Positions 22,781 to 31,393 of a stretch of 64,000 bases of DNA are shown piece after piece. Below the pieces are notes generated by a model, which was given only the letters and a program-made list of their open reading frames with translations, was not told where the DNA came from and made no database searches. Position 1 is the stretch's first letter; every line of letters starts with the position of its first letter. The translations under genes and the position numbers were made by a program. Where the stretch lies: the NCBI RefSeq assembly GCF_000152965.1, contig NZ_CH902583.1, forward strand, positions 2,128,754 to 2,192,753, in the 5' to 3' direction. The DNA is from Roseobacter sp. MED193. Its GTDB lineage: Bacteria > Pseudomonadota > Alphaproteobacteria > Rhodobacterales > Rhodobacteraceae.

Positions 22781-23977
22781 ATGCAGATACTGGATTACTC
22801 CCATAACACCCTACTGGTCCTCGCTTCCCTTTTGGTCGCGACAATGGCCGGGTTCACCGGTTTCTCGCTGACCAAGGGTCTGTCAGAGCGCAGTGTTGCC
22901 CACCGAAAAATCCTCATCGCACTCGCTGCGGTTGCGCTGGGGGGCGGTATCTGGTCCATGCATTTTGTCGCCATGCTTGGGCTACAACTGCCAATTCTGT
23001 TCTACTATGATGCCGCCATAACCCTGGCCTCAGCCCTAATCGCCATTCTGGTGGTCGGCTGTGCGCTGCTTATCCTGCATTTTTGGAAACGGACCGCAGG
23101 GACGCTGGTTCTTGCGGGTGTGATTGTCGGGTTAGGCGTCCTGGCCATGCATTATCTGGGCATGTCTGCGATGGAGCTCTGCCAGGCACTCTATACCCCA
23201 ACCGGGATTGCTTTGGCTGTCATCTCCTCCTGTGCGCTCAATACTGCGGCCTTTGCCATCGCTTATGGTCAGCGAACCCAACGCAATATCGTTGTCGGAA
23301 CATTGTTCTTTGGCTTTGCTGTTTTTGCAGTGCATTTCATTGCTATCAGTGGCGCCGACTTTGTCGCCGTGGATAATTTGACCGAGGTTGGTCCGTTGAT
23401 CAGCAATGAGGTCATGGCAATTGCTGTTGTCCTTAGCAGCTTTGTTCTATGCGGGGCCTTCCTGCTGACCGGGGTTACCTTCTTGGCACCACCTGAATTG
23501 GCACCGCTACAGCCAGAGGCCCACCTGACCCCCTCTGCAAATCCTCTGACCGGGCCAGAGCAGGATCAAGAACAAGAGCCCCAACAACCAACAGCGCAGC
23601 CCGCTGCACCGATTGCTGCCCCCGATGAGCCCCATACAACCACCACACAGAGCCAGATCCCCTATGAGCTGGAAGGGCGCACCCTGTTTTTGGACCGCCA
23701 AGAGGTGGCTGCCATCCGGGCAGAGGGGCACTACACCCATATCTATACCGAAGAGGATAAGCTGTTTTGTGTCTGGTCTATCACCGAGGCGGAAAAGCGA
23801 CTGGGTCCGACCCGCTTTATCAAGACCCACCGCAGCTACTTGGTTAACCCAGCTTTTGTCACCGGGTTTGAACGGCTCAAGGACAATGGCGTCTGCTATT
23901 TTGACATCGCGAAACTCTCCAAGGTTCCTGTAAGCCGCTCACGATTGCGGGCCGTGCGCGAGATGTTGGGCGTCTAG
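22781..23977 (+). CDS. coxC: MHYT-LytTR membrane-bound transcriptional regulator, CoxC type
   Basis: A 398-residue protein. Residues 1-235 carry about seven hydrophobic segments with the MHYT-domain signatures MHFVAM (about 66), MHYLGM (about 124) and VHFIAI (about 187). MHYT domains are proposed to bind a diatomic gas or copper through these His/Met residues. A Pro/Gln-rich linker (about 240-295) leads to a C-terminal LytTR DNA-binding domain (about 297-398) with IRAEGHYTHIYTE and RFIKTHRSYLVNPAFV. The combination is that of CoxC/CoxH in Oligotropha carboxidovorans, encoded in the CO dehydrogenase cluster. It precedes coxM by 138 bases; a direct-repeat site in between is its likely target. 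Confidence 0.85.
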   Translation: MQILDYSHNTLLVLASLLVATMAGFTGFSLTKGLSERSVAHRKILIALAAVALGGGIWSMHFVAMLGLQLPILFYYDAAITLASALIAILVVGCALLILHFWKRTAGTLVLAGVIVGLGVLAMHYLGMSAMELCQALYTPTGIALAVISSCALNTAAFAIAYGQRTQRNIVVGTLFFGFAVFAVHFIAISGADFVAVDNLTEVGPLISNEVMAIAVVLSSFVLCGAFLLTGVTFLAPPELAPLQPEAHLTPSANPLTGPEQDQEQEPQQPTAQPAAPIAAPDEPHTTTTQSQIPYELEGRTLFLDRQEVAAIRAEGHYTHIYTEEDKLFCVWSITEAEKRLGPTRFIKTHRSYLVNPAFVTGFERLKDNGVCYFDIAKLSKVPVSRSRLRAVREMLGV

Positions 23978-23983
23978 TCACCA

Positions 23984-24016
23984 CGCATTTCGTGCCTTCA
24001 GTTTCGCATTTCGTGC
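23984..24016. promoter_or_regulatory. Tandem direct repeat, candidate LytTR operator of cox genes
   Basis: The 12-mer CGCATTTCGTGC occurs exactly twice, at 23984-23995 and 24005-24016, start to start 21 bp, two turns of the helix. LytTR proteins bind pairs of direct repeats with about this spacing on one face of DNA. It lies between coxC, which encodes a LytTR domain, and coxM, about 100 bases before the coxM ATG. Binding is inferred, not shown. Confidence 0.65.
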
Positions 24017-24115
24017 GCAAACCCTCTCTTTTCAGTGAAAAACGGATGCGCCAAAACCACGGCGCGCCGCAGGCTTCCCTCAAGCAAGTAAATTGCACGT
24101 CAGGGAGGACAAGCA

Positions 24116-24970
24116 ATGATACCAGCGGCGTTTGACTATTATCGCCCCAAGAACATGGATGAGGTAATCGCCTTATTGCAGGAGCACGGCGATGATGCCC
24201 GTGTGATGGCAGGCGGGCACAGCCTGATCCCGATGATGAAGCTTCGCATGGCCGAAGTGCCGCATCTGATCGACCTTCAGAGCATTGAAGGCCTCAAAAC
24301 GATAGAGATCGAAAACGGTCAGATCACCCTTGGCGCGATGGTGACGCAGCATGATCTGATCGACCACGACGGTCTCGCCGCTGCGGTACCAATCCTGCGT
24401 GAAGCCGCCTTGCAGATTGCCGACCCCCAGGTGCGCTACATGGGCACGATCGGGGGCAACGTCGCCAACGGTGACCCTGGCAATGACATGCCAGGCGTGA
24501 TGCAGTGCCTGGATGCGCAGATCAATCTGGCAGGTCCCGATGGCCCCCGGACGGTTGCAGCCCGCGACTACTATGAAGCCGCCTATATGACCGACCGCGC
24601 AGATGACGAGGTGCTCGTCTCGGTGAGCTTGACGGCGCCCACAGGTGGCTACGCCTATGAAAAGCAAAAGCGCAAAATTGGCGATTATGCCACGGCTGCT
24701 GCGGCGGTTCAGATCACCAAATCTGACGGCAAAGTTGCCACAGCCTCCATTGCAATGACCAACTTGAGCGACGTTCCAGTCTGGTCCGAAGAGGCAAGCG
24801 CCGCTCTGATTGGCACCAGCTGCGAAAGCGCTGCACTCGATGCAGCCGTAGCGGCCATGCTGGGCGATATTGATCCGTCCGAGGACAACCGCGGCCCGGT
24901 TGCCTTTAAACGCCACGTGGCTGGCGTGATCCTGAAACGCGCGGTGACACGCGCCTGGGACCGGGCATAG
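24116..24970 (+). CDS. coxM: CO dehydrogenase medium (FAD-binding) subunit
   Basis: A 284-residue flavoprotein subunit of aerobic [MoCu] carbon monoxide dehydrogenase, matching the expected length. VMAGGHSLIPMMKLRMA is the N-terminal FAD pyrophosphate loop, TIGGNVANGDPGND the second glycine-rich FAD loop, and KQKRKIGDYATAAAAV belongs to the C-terminal domain. The subunit passes electrons from the iron-sulfur clusters to the quinone pool. GGGAGG sits upstream of the ATG. First structural gene of the operon, 12 bases before coxS. Confidence 0.95.
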   Translation: MIPAAFDYYRPKNMDEVIALLQEHGDDARVMAGGHSLIPMMKLRMAEVPHLIDLQSIEGLKTIEIENGQITLGAMVTQHDLIDHDGLAAAVPILREAALQIADPQVRYMGTIGGNVANGDPGNDMPGVMQCLDAQINLAGPDGPRTVAARDYYEAAYMTDRADDEVLVSVSLTAPTGGYAYEKQKRKIGDYATAAAAVQITKSDGKVATASIAMTNLSDVPVWSEEASAALIGTSCESAALDAAVAAMLGDIDPSEDNRGPVAFKRHVAGVILKRAVTRAWDRA

Positions 24971-24982
24971 GGGAGCAAAAAC

Positions 24983-25477
24983 ATGTCAGACAAGATGCAT
25001 ATCAAACTGAAGGTCAACGGCGAGGACAAAGAGTTCCTGGCCGAACCGCGTGAGCTGCTGATCTACGCTCTGCGCGAAAAGCTGAATATCACCGGCCCAC
25101 ATGTTGGCTGTGAGACCTCTCATTGTGGCGCTTGCACCGTCACCATTGATGGTAAATCGGTGAAGTCCTGCACTATGTTTGTGGCCCAGGCCAATGGCGC
25201 TGAGATCACCACTATCGAAGGGATCGGGACGCCGGATGCCCTGCATGTGCTGCAGGAAAACTTCCGCGAGCATCACGGGCTTCAGTGCGGGTTCTGCACC
25301 CCCGGCATGATCACCCGCGCCACCAAGCTGCTGGAAGAAAATCCAAACCCCACCGAAGAAGAGGTGCGCTTTGGCATGGCCGGCAATATCTGCCGCTGTA
25401 CTGGATATCAGAATATCGTCAAATCCATCCTCTCGGCCGCAAGCGAGATCAATGCAGCCAAGGAGGCAGCGCAATGA
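24983..25477 (+). CDS. coxS: CO dehydrogenase small (2Fe-2S) subunit
   Basis: A 164-residue protein with two [2Fe-2S] domains. The N-terminal plant-type cluster ligands are in [20 protein letters not shown] with a following Cys; the C-terminal helical cluster ligands are in [12 protein letters not shown] and [11 protein letters not shown]. Together these carry electrons from the molybdenum-copper centre in CoxL to FAD in CoxM. The stop codon overlaps the coxL start as ATGA, so expression is coupled. Confidence 0.96.
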
Positions 25478-27891
25478 ACGATATGACTCCAGACCGCGAA
25501 GAACGCTCTGCCAACCTCAAGGGCCTTGGCTGCTCCCGCAAACGCGTCGAGGATGCCCGGTTCACCCAGGGCAAGGGCAACTATGTCGATGACATCAAAC
25601 TTCCCGATATGTTGCACGGAGATTTTGTCCGCTCTCCCTATGCCCATGCACGGGTTGTGTCGGTCAATAAGGACGCCGCTCTGGCGCTGCCCGGTGTTGT
25701 TGCCGTTCTGACCGCCGAAGACCTGGCCCCACTGAATCTCCATTGGATGCCCACTCTGGCGGGTGACAAGCAAATGGTTCTGGCCGATGGCAAGGTGCTG
25801 TTCCAGGGCCAGGAAGTGGCCTTTGTCGTCGCCTCTGATCGCTATGTCGCCGCCGATGCGGTAGAGCTGGTTGAGGTCGAATACGAAGAGCTGGAGGTGA
25901 TCACCGATCCCTTTGAGGCACTTAAATCCGATGTGGTCCTACGCGAGGATCTGGAGGGCCAGACCGAAGGCGCCCATGGGCCGCGCAAACACCACAACCA
26001 TATCTTCACCTGGGAACAGGGCGATGAGGCAGGCACCAATCAGGTGCTGGACAATGCCGAGGTGGTGGCTGAGGAAACCATGTATTACCACCGCACCCAC
26101 CCCTGCCCGCTGGAGACCTGCGGCTCGGTGGCCTCGATGGACAAGGTCAACGGCAAGTTGACGCTTTGGGGCACCTTCCAGGCGCCACATGTGGTGCGCA
26201 CCGTGGCCTCGCTGTTGTCGGGAATCGAAGAGCACAATATTCGCGTGGTCTCCCCCGATATTGGCGGCGGCTTTGGCAATAAGGTTGGTGTCTACCCTGG
26301 TTATGTTTGTTCCATCGTCGCCTCCATTGTGACCGGAAAACCGGTGAAGTGGGTCGAGGATCGGATGGAAAACCTGATGTCCACCGCCTTTGCCCGCGAC
26401 TATCACATGACCGGCAAGATCTCAGCCACCAAGGAGGGTAAGATCACCGGGCTGCATTGCCATGTAACCGCCGACCACGGTGGCTTTGACGCCTGCGCTG
26501 ATCCGACCAAATTCCCGGCTGGCTTCATGAATATCTGCACTGGGTCCTATGACATCCCGGTGGCCTATCTGGCCGTGGATGGCGTCTATACCAACAAGGC
26601 TCCCGGTGGTGTCTCCTATCGCTGCTCCTTCCGGGTGACCGAGGCGGTCTATTTTATTGAGCGCATGATCGAGGTCCTGGCGATTGAGCTGGATATGGAT
26701 GCAGCCGAGCTGCGCCGGATCAACTTCATCAAAAAAGAGCAGTTCCCCTACACGGCGGCGCTGGGTTGGGAATATGATTCCGGCGATTATCACACGGCCT
26801 GGGACAAGGCGCTGGAGACCGTCGATTATGAAGGCCTGCGCGCGGAGCAGGCGGAACGGGTTGCGGCCTTCAAACGCGGCGAGACCCGCAAGCTGATGGG
26901 GGTTGGTCTGAGCTTTTTCACCGAGATTGTCGGTGCAGGCCCGGTTAAGAACTGCGATATCCTCGGCATGGGGATGTTTGACAGCTGCGAGATCCGCATA
27001 CATCCCACCGGATCGGCCATCGCGCGTCTAGGCACCATTAGCCAGGGTCAGGGCCATGCGACAACCTTTGCACAGATCCTCGCCAGTGAGATCGGTATCT
27101 CTGCCGATAGCATCACCATCGAGGAAGGCGACACTGACACCGCCCCCTATGGACTGGGCACCTATGGATCGCGCTCCACGCCGGTTGCAGGCGCCGCCAC
27201 GGCGATGGCGGGGCGTAAAATCCGCGCCAAGGCGCAGATGATCGCGGCCTATCTGCTTGAGGTGCATGACGATGACGTAGAGTTCGACATCGACCGGTTT
27301 GTGGTCAAGGGCGCGCCAGAGCGGTTCAAGACAATGAAAGAGATCGCCTATGCCGCCTATAATCAGGCCATTCCGGGGATCGAACCAGGTCTTGAGGCAG
27401 TCAGCTACTATGATCCGCCCAATATGACTTATCCCTTTGGCGCCTATGTCTGTGTGATGGATATCGACGTGGACACCGGGGTTCCGGAAATCCGCCGCTT
27501 TTATGCGCTGGATGACTGCGGCACCCGGATCAATCCGATGATCATCGAAGGTCAGGTGCATGGAGGGCTGACCGAGGCGCTCGCCGTCGCGCTGGGACAG
27601 GAAATTGCCTATGACGATATGGGCAATGTCAAGACCGGCACGCTGATGGACTTCTTCTTGCCGACCGCATGGGAAGTCCCGAACTATGAGACGGATTATA
27701 CCGTCACCCCCAGCCCGCATCACCCCATCGGCGCCAAGGGCGTCGGCGAAAGCCCCCATGTGGGCGGCGTGCCCTGCTTCTCGAATGCTGTACAGGATGC
27801 CTTCCGCGCCTTCGGGTTGCGACACACCAATATGCCCCATGACCACTGGCGCATTTGGCAGACCGCCAATGGTCTGGGCCTGCACGATTAG
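25474..27891 (+). CDS. coxL: CO dehydrogenase large (molybdenum-copper) subunit, form I
   Basis: An 805-residue catalytic subunit binding molybdenum cytosine dinucleotide and, in characterised members, copper. The active-site loop reads SYRCSFR with the copper-coordinating Cys at residue 384 (Cys388 in the O. carboxidovorans enzyme). CSFR marks form I, bona fide CO dehydrogenases, as opposed to the AYRGAGR of form II; the first residue is Ser where form I usually has Ala. [11 protein letters not shown] and [13 protein letters not shown] are the molybdenum-cofactor binding motifs of the xanthine oxidase family. The ATG at 25474 matches family N-termini and overlaps coxS; the frame is open further upstream, which is not used. 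Confidence 0.95.
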
Positions 27892-27945
27892 GGAGACCGA
27901 GGCGATCCCATCATGGGGTCGCCTCCTCACCAAACGGGGATGATC

Positions 27946-28821
27946 ATGACCTGGACCACGCTTCAAACCGCCATGGCGGAACAGGGCTATATTGCCGATG
28001 ACGACTTGGCGATGGCGGTGCATCTGGCGCTGTCGCTGGGCCGTCCTTTGCTGCTGGAAGGTGCCGCCGGCGTGGGCAAGACCGAGGTCGCTCGGGTGCT
28101 CAGCAACCTACGCGAGACCGAGTTGATCCGCCTGCAATGCTACGAGGGGTTGGACGCGGCGCAGGCAATCTATGAATGGAACTATCAGCGCCAGCTCTTG
28201 TCGATCCGGGCCGCCTCCGAACATGGCGAAACCGGGCGCAGTGTCGAAGAACGTATTTTCTCCGAAGAATTCCTTTTGGAACGTCCCCTGCTCAAAGCGA
28301 TCCGCCGCGATACACCACCCGTGCTGTTGATTGACGAAATCGACCGCGCCGATGAGGAGTTTGAGGCCTATCTGCTTGAAATTCTGTCAGAGTTTCAAGT
28401 GACCATCCCCGAACTGGGGACCATAAGTGCAAAATCTCGCCCCATTGTAATTCTCACCGCCAATGGCACCCGCGATCTGAGTGACGCGTTGCGGCGGCGC
28501 TGTCTTTATGCCCATGTCTCTTACCCGGAACGTGCCACTGAACTGGCGATCCTCAAGGCACGCTGCGGGGCAATCGAAGACAGATTAGCGGGGCAGATCA
28601 TCGGTTTTGTCCAGTCCCTGCGCAAAGAGGATCTGGAGAAAAAGCCTGGCATTGCTGAGATGCTGGACTTTGCCGCTGCTCTGATGGGGCTTGGGATTGC
28701 CGATCTGACACAAGATCCAGTGGTGCTGCAGGCTTGCCTGGCCACCTTGCTAAAGACTGAGACGGATCGCTTCAACATCACCACCGAGGTGGCGCAACGC
28801 CTTGCAGGTAAAGCAGCATGA
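27946..28821 (+). CDS. coxD: CO dehydrogenase maturation AAA+ ATPase CoxD (MoxR family)
   Basis: A 291-residue MoxR-type AAA+ ATPase. Walker A is GAAGVGKTE (residues 39-47), Walker B PVLLIDEIDRADEEF, with the sensor 1 segment IVILTANGTRDLSDALRRRC. In O. carboxidovorans CoxD helps insert sulfur and copper into the active site of CODH; this function is inferred by family and position. The ATG at 27946 is preferred because GGGGA sits 5 bases before it; an ATG at 27940 is possible. It overlaps coxE by four bases (ATGA). Confidence 0.92.
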   Translation: MTWTTLQTAMAEQGYIADDDLAMAVHLALSLGRPLLLEGAAGVGKTEVARVLSNLRETELIRLQCYEGLDAAQAIYEWNYQRQLLSIRAASEHGETGRSVEERIFSEEFLLERPLLKAIRRDTPPVLLIDEIDRADEEFEAYLLEILSEFQVTIPELGTISAKSRPIVILTANGTRDLSDALRRRCLYAHVSYPERATELAILKARCGAIEDRLAGQIIGFVQSLRKEDLEKKPGIAEMLDFAAALMGLGIADLTQDPVVLQACLATLLKTETDRFNITTEVAQRLAGKAA

Positions 28822-30002
28822 GCCAGGTCACCAAATTCGCCGCCCGTGATTCGGGACCAACGGCCCGAATGGTCGGCTTTATGTCCCATCTGCGCGACAA
28901 CGGCTTTCGCCTGGGCGTTGGTGAGGCAGAGCTGAGCCTGCAGGCGCTGACCCATGTGATCGCTTCGGACCCCACCGTCACCCGACATGCCCTGCGCGCA
29001 GTTTGTACGGGGTCAATTGAGGAGGTGGAACGGTTTGATGGCCTATTTGATGCCTTCTGGATGAATGGTGGGCGCGTCACGACAAAAACCATTCCAACCC
29101 AGTCCCCCGTTTCAGACCATATCCATAGTTCGCGCGATGCCGCCGGAGCTGAAAATTCAGGAGGTGCAGGAACACCCAGCACACCAGATAGCGCGGGCGA
29201 AGACCCGGCGGAAGCGGATGGGGAGGGCAAGCTGGTTGCCAGCCTGACCCAGGCAAAGATGAAGACAGATCTGCGCGATCTGGTTCGCCCAGAAGAGATT
29301 GCAGAGGCCCAGGTGGTAGCACAACGTTTGGGCGCGGCATTGCGGGATCGTCGCTCGCGGCGGCGCAGGCAACACCGTAAGGGAGACCGAATTCATTTTA
29401 GAAAGGTGATCCGCCAAAGCCTCTCTTCCGGAGGGGAACCCCTGCATCTGGCCCGGATGCGCCGCCCGGACCGACCACTTAAAATCGTGACGCTTTGCGA
29501 TGTATCCGGGTCGATGGCCACCTATGCGCAGGTGTTTCTTGCCTTTGTGGCTGGAATGATGCGGGCAGATCCAAACACGGATGCCTATCTGTTTCACACC
29601 CGGCTGGTACGGATCGCCGAAGCTCTGCGCGATAAGGACGCTTTGCGTGCTCTGGGGCGTCTGTCTGTTCTAGCAGATGGCTTTGGCGGGGGGTCAAAAA
29701 TTGGCGTCTCTCTGGCCCAGTTCTCCCAAACCTATGCACGTCGGTTTGTCGATGGGCGCACCGTGGTTCTGATCCTGTCGGATGGCTACGACACCGACCA
29801 CCCGGACCTGTTGAGCGCTGCGCTGGAAAAGCTGAAGAAGCGCGGCTGCAAGATCATCTGGCTGAACCCTCTGAAGGGCTGGGCAGGCTATGAGCCGGTG
29901 ACCCGCGCCATGGCACAGGCCCTGCCGCATTTGGATGTGTTTTGCCCCGCCAACACCCTGGCCGACCTGGCTGCCCTGGAACAGGAGCTCACCCGCCTAT
30001 GA
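28818..30002 (+). CDS. coxE: CO dehydrogenase maturation protein CoxE (VWA domain)
   Basis: A 394-residue cytosolic protein. Residues 1-170 contain an acidic, low-complexity central linker (about 95-140). A basic stretch RDRRSRRRRQHRKGDRIHF (about 177-194) follows, then a von Willebrand factor A domain whose metal-ion adhesion motif is DVSGSM (228-233), with VLILSDGYDTDHP later. MoxR ATPases and VWA partners such as CoxD/CoxE act together as chaperones; here they overlap by 4 bases. Its stop overlaps the coxF start as ATGA. Confidence 0.93.
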   Translation: MSQVTKFAARDSGPTARMVGFMSHLRDNGFRLGVGEAELSLQALTHVIASDPTVTRHALRAVCTGSIEEVERFDGLFDAFWMNGGRVTTKTIPTQSPVSDHIHSSRDAAGAENSGGAGTPSTPDSAGEDPAEADGEGKLVASLTQAKMKTDLRDLVRPEEIAEAQVVAQRLGAALRDRRSRRRRQHRKGDRIHFRKVIRQSLSSGGEPLHLARMRRPDRPLKIVTLCDVSGSMATYAQVFLAFVAGMMRADPNTDAYLFHTRLVRIAEALRDKDALRALGRLSVLADGFGGGSKIGVSLAQFSQTYARRFVDGRTVVLILSDGYDTDHPDLLSAALEKLKKRGCKIIWLNPLKGWAGYEPVTRAMAQALPHLDVFCPANTLADLAALEQELTRL

Positions 30003-30832
30003 CCCCAGCTGAGATGATCGATACAGATATGGCAACCCTGGCTCAAGAAATGCGCGCGCGCGGAGAGCCCTTTGCCATTGCCACGGTGGTACGCACCCTG
30101 GGCGCAACGGCGGCAAAACCGGGCGCCAAGGCGCTGCTGGATGGCGAAGGCACCATCTTGCAGGGCTGGATTGGCGGCGGTTGCGTGCGCAGTGCTTTGG
30201 TGAAGGCCGTAAAACGCGCCCTGCAAGATGGCACGCCGCAATTGGTCTCGCTACATCCGCAGGATCTATTGGATGAAAAAGGGCTCACCGCCGGGGACAG
30301 CGTCGACGGCGTGCGTTTTGCCCGCAATGGCTGCCCTTCCAAGGGGTCAATGGATATCTTTGTAGAGCTGATCCTTCCCCTGCCGGAATTGGTGATCTAT
30401 GGCGATGCGCCAGTGGCGCAATCCCTGGCGCGGCTCGCCGAACAATTCCAATGGGCCGTAACCATCGGCGATCCCGAGGCCTCCCCCCTGGCCCTATCGC
30501 AGGGAGAGACCCGCATGATCGTGGTGGCAAGCCAAGGCAAGGGCGATCTGGCCTGCCTGAAACAGGCGCTGGAAACATCGGCAGCTTTTGTCGCCTTTGT
30601 GGGCAGCCATCGTAAATTCGCGGCCCTGTCAGAGACTTTGATCGGGCGTGGCGTCGCGCGGGCAGATCTGGACCGGATCCAGGCCCCAGCTGGACTGGCC
30701 ATTGGCGCGGTGACACCGGATGAGATTGCCCTCTCCATTTTGGCGCAACTGACGCAGGTGCGCCGTCGCACCCATCGCAGCGAAGAGCAAATCACCCCAG
30801 ACCAACAGAGCCAACAGGAGGCAAGCGCTTGA
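29999..30832 (+). CDS. coxF: CO dehydrogenase maturation protein CoxF (XdhC family)
   Basis: A 277-residue XdhC/CoxI-family protein. The N-terminal domain has PFAIATVVRTLGATAAKPGAK and GWIGGGCVRSALVKA, with the conserved cysteine in GGGC, and residues 140-250 form a Rossmann-like XdhC_C domain (VAFVGSHRKFAAL, AGLAIGAVTPDEIALSI). XdhC proteins bind and help insert the molybdenum cofactor into xanthine oxidase family enzymes. The ATG at 29999 overlaps the coxE stop. The charged QRS-rich C-terminal tail ends in a TTGA overlap with the next small frame. Confidence 0.92.
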   Translation: MTPAEMIDTDMATLAQEMRARGEPFAIATVVRTLGATAAKPGAKALLDGEGTILQGWIGGGCVRSALVKAVKRALQDGTPQLVSLHPQDLLDEKGLTAGDSVDGVRFARNGCPSKGSMDIFVELILPLPELVIYGDAPVAQSLARLAEQFQWAVTIGDPEASPLALSQGETRMIVVASQGKGDLACLKQALETSAAFVAFVGSHRKFAALSETLIGRGVARADLDRIQAPAGLAIGAVTPDEIALSILAQLTQVRRRTHRSEEQITPDQQSQQEASA

Positions 30833-30930
30833 AACGCATAATGACTTACCTGCAGTCGCGCTTCTCTCTGGCTCCATTGAGCAAAGAGCAGGCTGAGATA
30901 ATGGCCTCTGTAAAACACCCCTGTTGTTAA
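30829..30930 (+). CDS. Possible 33-residue micropeptide ending Cys-Cys in the cox operon
   Basis: A TTG-initiated frame that overlaps the coxF stop codon (TTGA) and has AGGAGG about 7 bases upstream, the best ribosome binding site in the cluster. It encodes KRIMTYLQSRF then SLAPLSKEQAEIMASV and ends HPCC, followed by TAA; the next gene coxG begins 13 bases later after its own AAGGA. The residues are amphipathic-helix-like with a C-terminal His-Pro-Cys-Cys. It could be a metal-binding or partner-binding peptide for CODH assembly, or simply a translation-coupling leader. Unknown family; not proven expressed. Confidence 0.45.
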   Translation: MKRIMTYLQSRFSLAPLSKEQAEIMASVKHPCC

Positions 30931-30943
30931 GAAGGATACGCAC

Positions 30944-31393
30944 GTGGAACTGAACGACGAAATCACAATCAACGCCCCAATGGCACGGGTCTATGAGGCC
31001 TTGAACGACCCAGAGATCCTGCAACAGTGCATTCCTGGCTGCGAAGAACTGATAAAACACTCTGACAGCGAATTGGAAGCCAAGGTGGTGCTGAAAATCG
31101 GCCCTGTCAAAGCGCGCTTTGGCGGCAATGTGGAGCTGGATACCTCTGGCGCTCCGGATGCCTTCTCCCTGACCGGCCAGGGCAGCGGTGGTGCAGCCGG
31201 CTATGCCAAGGGCGGCGCGGATGTCACCCTGAGCGAAGCAGATGGAGTCACCACCCTCACCTATACTGCCAAGGTCGATATTGGCGGCAAGCTGGCGCAG
31301 CTGGGATCCCGCCTGATCCAGAGCACGGCGAAAAAACTGGCTGGCAAGTTCTTCAAATCTTTCGGGGAGGTTGTCGACAGCGTTGACGCCTGA
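30944..31393 (+). CDS. coxG: CO dehydrogenase accessory protein CoxG (SRPBCC family)
   Basis: A 149-residue SRPBCC/START-fold protein starting with GTG and AAGGA upstream. [22 protein letters not shown] is the usual N-terminal strand and first helix; [16 protein letters not shown] and [24 protein letters not shown] are typical of CoxG. In characterised organisms CoxG is proposed to anchor CODH to the cytoplasmic membrane. This protein lacks the C-terminal hydrophobic tail of longer CoxG proteins, ending soon after [12 protein letters not shown], so direct membrane anchoring is not obvious. Last gene of the operon, followed by a terminator. Confidence 0.9.

Follow-up and report, generated by a model that had tools for sequence, protein, structure and literature searches.

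Direct repeats ahead of coxM in Roseobacter sp. MED193 as a predicted operator of the membrane regulator CoxC

The spacer between coxC and coxM in Roseobacter sp. MED193 contains direct repeats that are predicted, from sequence comparison, to form the CoxC operator of the coxM promoter (probability approximately 0.9). The same site recurs ahead of the CO dehydrogenase genes of many marine roseobacters and of some more distant relatives. This CO dehydrogenase is present in roughly one in four of the family genomes searched (CoxM at E 1e-70 in 101/394), and the conserved operator would give a membrane-bound CO sensor a direct target on DNA, predicting a regulated promoter wherever it is present. 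A membrane-tethered regulator reading in-line boxes would also be mechanically unusual. In literature searches covering mainly papers outside subscription journals, no described roseobacter CoxC operator, no binding or expression data for one, and no account of the control of roseobacter CO dehydrogenase genes were found; the word roseobacter is absent from the study of Afipia CoxC used for comparison (PMC11347149).

Repeat pair and flanking genes

The window was the whole stretch of DNA analysed (64 kb). The regulator gene, the predicted boxes, and the genes of the proposed target operon are located in it as follows:

22781..23977, + strand: coxC, membrane MHYT-LytTR regulator, 398 aa (Pfam MHYT 4.4e-27, LytTR 4.4e-17)
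23984..23997, + strand: predicted CoxC box R1, CGCATTTCGTGCCT
24005..24018, + strand: predicted CoxC box R2, CGCATTTCGTGCGC, 21 bp past R1 and 111 bp ahead of the coxM ATG
24025..24039, + strand: weak third box R3, TTTTCAGTGA region, at R1+41-42 (family-wide signal at R1+41)
24102..24109, + strand: probable coxM ribosome-binding site, AGGGAGGA, assigned from its letters
24116..24970, + strand: coxM, CO dehydrogenase FAD subunit (Pfam FAD_binding_5, CO_deh_flav_C), opening the proposed target operon
24983..25477, + strand: coxS, iron-sulfur subunit (Pfam Fer2_2, Fer2)
25474..27891, + strand: coxL, large subunit (from translation; start chosen by inference)
27913..31393, + strand: maturation genes, namely an AAA ATPase (coxD), coxE, an XdhC-type gene (coxF), and coxG (Pfam; gene letters assigned by analogy with Afipia)

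The coxL translation contains SYRCSFR, which we take to resemble the form I signature.

The spacer from the coxC stop (23977) to coxM (24116) is 138 bp long and contains two exact copies of the 12-mer CGCATTTCGTGC, at 23984-23995 and 24005-24016 with a period of 21, as the earlier note had placed them. When the spacer was shuffled by mononucleotides 20,000 times, an exact 12-mer direct repeat arose by chance in 5 cases, and the matrix pair score of the window was equalled in 0/1000 dinucleotide shuffles. CGCANTTCGTG was confined to this spot within the window (two copies in 0/100 shuffles), and the 33-bp element had one match in the 4.67-Mb genome of the strain when up to 3 mismatches were allowed. 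Single boxes were unremarkable (7 matches in the window with 2 mismatches vs 10.3 expected); it is the exact pair, rather than the single box, that stands out in the window. The repeats proposed in the earlier note were retained, but its length of 33 bp was replaced by approximately 55 bp, because the conserved box is wider (approximately CGCAnTTCGTGcA) and is joined by a weak third copy near 24025-24039. The pair was also extended in number, the family pattern being three boxes, not two.

In the AlphaFold model of CoxC, seven helices were predicted within residues 10-233, the linker (residues 234-288) was of low confidence, and the LytTR domain (approximately 290-398) had a confident fold. 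The N-terminal part is a seven-helix MHYT domain with three His-containing motifs, and the motif His was retained in 96/96 CoxC rows at each of the three. The LytTR part matched PDB 3d6w (9.3e-07), the AgrA-DNA structure 3bs1 (1.4e-03), and also ComE structures. MHYT and LytTR were the only Pfam domains at E 0.001; no heme (PAS) sensor domain of the RcoM type was found at that threshold.

Conservation of the boxes and their association with coxM

When CoxC was searched for in the 394 family genomes, at least 147 of them matched at E 0.001; the weaker matches often covered the N-terminal part only, inside other frames. The locus set (L002-L100, 99 loci) comprised those of the matches listed that reached the LytTR part, together with a few doubtful ones. 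Loci having the LytTR part and coxM downstream were kept (91); the LytTR part was absent in the first tblastn from L013, L038, L092, and L100, and coxM was absent from L018, L031, L036, and L095. When L013, L038, L018, L031, L036, and L095 were re-examined (as L133, L134, L129, L131, L130, and L132, respectively), the pair was found before coxM in 6/6. A 14-bp weight matrix was started from the seed CGCATTTCGTGCAA and converged on CGCAnTTCGTGcA. For L021, the second and third boxes were scored in the pair count, and the locus was excluded from the third-box offset tests and the tree.

The pair of CGCAnTTCGTGc/a boxes was spaced by exactly 20 bp in 44/91 loci and by exactly 21 bp in another 44 (19-22 allowed), and it was below the threshold in three (L007, L022, and L099); these within-family counts are partly circular, since the same 95 loci had served to train the matrix. 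With the spacing freed to 12-60, the best pair of each of the 91 loci was at 20 (45 loci), 21 (45), or 29 (1). The earlier note had made its proposal depend on the conservation of the repeats in close relatives, and their retention at 20 or 21 bp in 88/91 loci supports the candidate it put forward, in which the neighbouring MHYT-LytTR regulator has a LytTR-type site ahead of the CO dehydrogenase operon. The spacing state switched between 20 and 21 at least 9 times on a quick tree built from 85 CoxC rows, so the pair is not one frozen ancestral sequence. Four spacers (L016, L024, L063, and L069) contain an extra box 9 bp upstream of R1 and overlapping it, perhaps a small tandem duplication within the operator.

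Past R2, the conserved columns included +42 G, +46 T, +47 T, +48 C, and +50 T (aligned on R1), which correspond to positions 1, 5, 6, 7, and 9 of a box placed at +41. In both spacing classes the mean box score was highest at +41 (z 5.0, 44 loci; z 3.6, 43 loci); the outer boxes therefore tend to keep 41 bp between them, with the middle box sliding by one base. The best offset within 34-89 fell at 40-42 in 54/87 loci. In the window, R3 is a poor matrix match that keeps the TT and G at +41 and lacks the GC of TTNNNGCN. As in the Afipia type, the TTnnnG core occurs in three directly repeated copies in the cox promoter region, two of them strong in the family and one, at R1+41, weak.

The boxes are tied to coxM rather than to coxC. 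The distance from R2 to the coxM ATG had a median of 110 bp (IQR 109-114, range 87-146), and that from the coxC stop to R1 ranged from -19 to 231 bp. A pair score above 18 was obtained before coxM in 89/90 loci and before coxC in 0/94. In three genomes where coxC lies 14, 31, and approximately 4 kb away, the pair is still before coxM, with the second box 98-108 bp ahead of it. R1 overlaps the last coxC codons in 23/88 loci (L014, L032, L039, and others), so the end of the regulator gene is there both protein-coding and box-bearing. Autoregulation of coxC was considered and rejected: the upstream pair in the window was matched by 495/1000 shuffles, and none of the 94 relatives exceeded the score of 18.

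A degenerate pattern applied to the 394 whole genomes gave 74 sites, one per genome, of which 69 were 86-134 bp upstream of coxM; the reversed-pattern control gave zero matches in the same genomes. The five other sites were in G307:C10, G260, G179, G393, and G387, and cox genes were not found within the 2.5-3 kb inspected around each of the last four. The G393 site falls within an ORF, presumably that of seryl-tRNA synthetase. The strict pattern was absent from 32 of the 101 CoxM genomes; 24 of these had a pair by the matrix, and the remaining eight were those of L007, L022, and L099 and five genomes without CoxC among the matches listed.

Comparison with Afipia and other LytTR sites

According to the earlier note, DNA recognition by MHYT-LytTR regulators of CO oxidation was not described in detail; it was described in 2024 for CoxC of Afipia carboxidovorans OM5 (Durante-Rodriguez et al. 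2024, PMC11347149). In that study, the LytTR domain binds PcoxB and requires three direct repeats, and CoxC is a repressor released by CO with copper. The MED193 system shares with it the MHYT-LytTR architecture, three direct repeats with the TTnnnG core, and a cox cluster as the target. The Afipia operator lies before coxB, whereas the MED193 element lies between coxC and coxM, and the box of MED193 and its family exceeds the published Afipia repeats in length and regularity (CGCAnTTCGTGcA); its period is 20/21, and the published repeats begin 29 and 26 bp apart.

When the family matrix, trained without Afipia, was applied to the 668-bp PcoxB intergenic region, the best triple was found at L229:2184 with spacings of 21/20, scoring 25.8 (best of 1000 shuffles, 14.3). 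It lies within the published probe stretch, although the first two bases of box I are altered there by the probe primer. The published repeats, as read from the mutant primers, begin at 2201, 2230, and 2256 and have box scores of -13.3, 1.4, and -1.3. The first published substitution alters one conserved base of box II (10.7 to 6.5); with the second, box III loses its TT and G.

A tentative reading, to which we give slightly less than even weight, is that the triplet before coxM is the primary alphaproteobacterial CoxC operator, that Afipia has two operators, and that the published PcoxB repeats are misregistered. The outer boxes of the triplet would then be approximately 41 bp apart and the middle one could shift by one base; the true PcoxB boxes would be CGCAGTTCATGC, CGCCGTTGGTGG, and AGTCGTTTGGGC at 0/21/41, published repeat I would be no separate site, and repeat II would be box III. 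Two published binding results (PMC11347149) count against 0/21/41: the first substitution alone (PcoxB1) left very weak binding, more of a loss than the drop from 10.7 to 6.5 would suggest, and a change in repeat III, beyond the triple, abolished the residual binding. The 0/21/41 register is therefore offered as a proposed correction to the one printed CoxC operator that was found, and not as a refutation of it.

The Afipia coxC-coxM spacer contains CGTATTTCGTGC, followed at a distance of 20 bp by TGCTTTTGGTGA (pair score 23.7 vs at most 20.0 in shuffles). With the third box at exactly +41, 24/1000 shuffles were as good as the triple; with +40 allowed, the triple scored 22.0 vs at most 5.3 in 500 shuffles. 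The main text of PMC11347149 names no PcoxM and has coxM only within cluster lists. From its sequence, this spacer would hold a second, so far unreported candidate operator. Bradyrhizobium betae has the same layout, and two Rhizobium plasmids have a box pair before coxM; the Afipia, Bradyrhizobium, and Rhizobium loci were all outside the matrix training set.

Among named, class-level, and plasmid loci with coxM, a pair scoring above 18 was present within 300 bp upstream in 86/88, with the spacing restricted to 20 or 21 and with some records shared with the family set; 7 of 95 loci had no coxM match. Nine class-level loci had coxM, and the score was above 18 in L135-L137, L139-L141, and L144, 17.1 in L142, and 2.0 in L143. 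For the comparison of PcoxB, 38 loci were scanned for CoxB relatives, with no match at E 1e-8. With Afipia CoxC as the query, 4 genomes of the family around G479 were covered. A roseobacter-like CoxC together with a box pair was observed in a record named Rhizobiales bacterium IMCC20636 (72%) and in MAGs labelled Granulosicoccaceae (58-59%) (L151, L171, and L175), which would point to horizontal transfer or to mislabelled bins.

AgrA and ComE are response regulators with no known membrane sensor, and RcoM1 is a soluble regulator with a sensor of the PAS type. The AgrA and ComE sites are like the family boxes in being direct repeats approximately two helical turns apart, and the regulators share the LytTR fold. 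The canonical LytTR site is a pair of 9-bp repeats (PMC11347149), in contrast to the three boxes here. The RcoM1 site of Paraburkholderia xenovorans, as described in PMC11347149, has TTCNNGCA directly repeated in three copies; gaps of 12-13 bp separate the 8-bp repeats, giving a 20/21-bp period as in the family boxes, and the family consensus TTCGTGCA fits TTCNNGCA exactly. The window boxes TTCGTGCC and TTCGTGCG, with their period of 21, have 5/6 of its defined letters, and the third box does not fit. RcoM1 is a heme sensor and an activator, whereas CoxC is a membrane MHYT protein.

Proposed mechanism, sign of control, and alternatives

That CoxC acts at the coxM promoter by docking on the in-line boxes was considered nearly as probable as the operator assignment. 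CoxC would reside in the cytoplasmic membrane with the MHYT domain as a gas sensor; that of Afipia CoxC is copper-dependent (PMC11347149). The C-terminal LytTR domains, carried on the flexible linker, would dock side by side on three boxes (two strong, one weak) lying in line on one helix face at 0, 21, and approximately 41 bp; both the binding in MED193 and the number of subunits bound are inferred. By analogy with Afipia, CoxC would occupy the boxes without CO, keeping coxMSLDEFG low, and CO at the MHYT domain would release it. Repression relieved by CO, drawn from the same analogy, is thus the favoured sign of control, with a modest lead over even odds.

Alternatively, CoxC could act from the same boxes as an activator, with or without CO, recruiting RNA polymerase from an operator just upstream of a weak -35. 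Sequences resembling a -10 were enriched at R1+84-90 (z 4.0, 87 loci; 7 windows tested, 3 groupings), which would put the -35 near R1+61, downstream of R3, and an operator upstream of the -35 also suits activation. The enrichment was weaker in the 21-bp class (z 2.6), and the -10 matrix used was entered by hand. The consensus scan found no sigma-70 promoter match in the window. The Afipia-type operator overlaps the -35 box. Activation from a site upstream of the -35 is stated for RcoM1 and for most LytTR regulators (PMC11347149), but the sole MHYT-LytTR regulator found to have been tested is a repressor. In the 0/21/41 register, Afipia PcoxB has TTGATG at +61 and TATCGT at +85, so a similar geometry accompanies repression there. 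The position of the operator alone does not discriminate repression from activation, and activation was judged unlikely, though with appreciable weight, against the preferred repression.

It is improbable that another regulator binds the boxes and that coxC is nearby merely by gene adjacency. LytTR proteins are not alone in having sites made of direct repeats spaced by two helical turns, and among the 101 CoxM genomes five (G008, G083, G109, G102, and G354) had no CoxC among the matches listed, one of which, G109, retains a degenerate pair. G008 and G083, however, have no pair before coxM, and the loci of G102 and G354 are interrupted by contig ends. Few sites are off coxM (5/74), as expected of a dedicated regulator, and the motif recurs in the Afipia promoter bound by CoxC in vitro (PMC11347149). 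In G109 (L238, approximately 1588-1608, - strand), the degenerate pair is followed by TTGACC 61 bp past R1, as if the operator were decaying and a plain promoter taking over after the loss of the regulator.

Hardly any weight can be given to duplication by chance, or to an element of a coxC-coxM transcript acting at the RNA level (R1 is transcribed where it overlaps the coxC end), against the conserved helical-phase spacing, the near-fixed distance to coxM, the persistence of the boxes with coxM after rearrangement, and a terminator scan that was empty on the + strand here and gave one weak match on the - strand.

As a minor observation, the third MHYT motif in the window (23327-23347, CoxC residues 183-189) reads AVHFIAI and that of Afipia GMHYTAM; the change of Met to Val was present in 77/96 CoxC rows, as in the window. 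Judging from these residues, copper coordination at this motif may differ in the roseobacter group.
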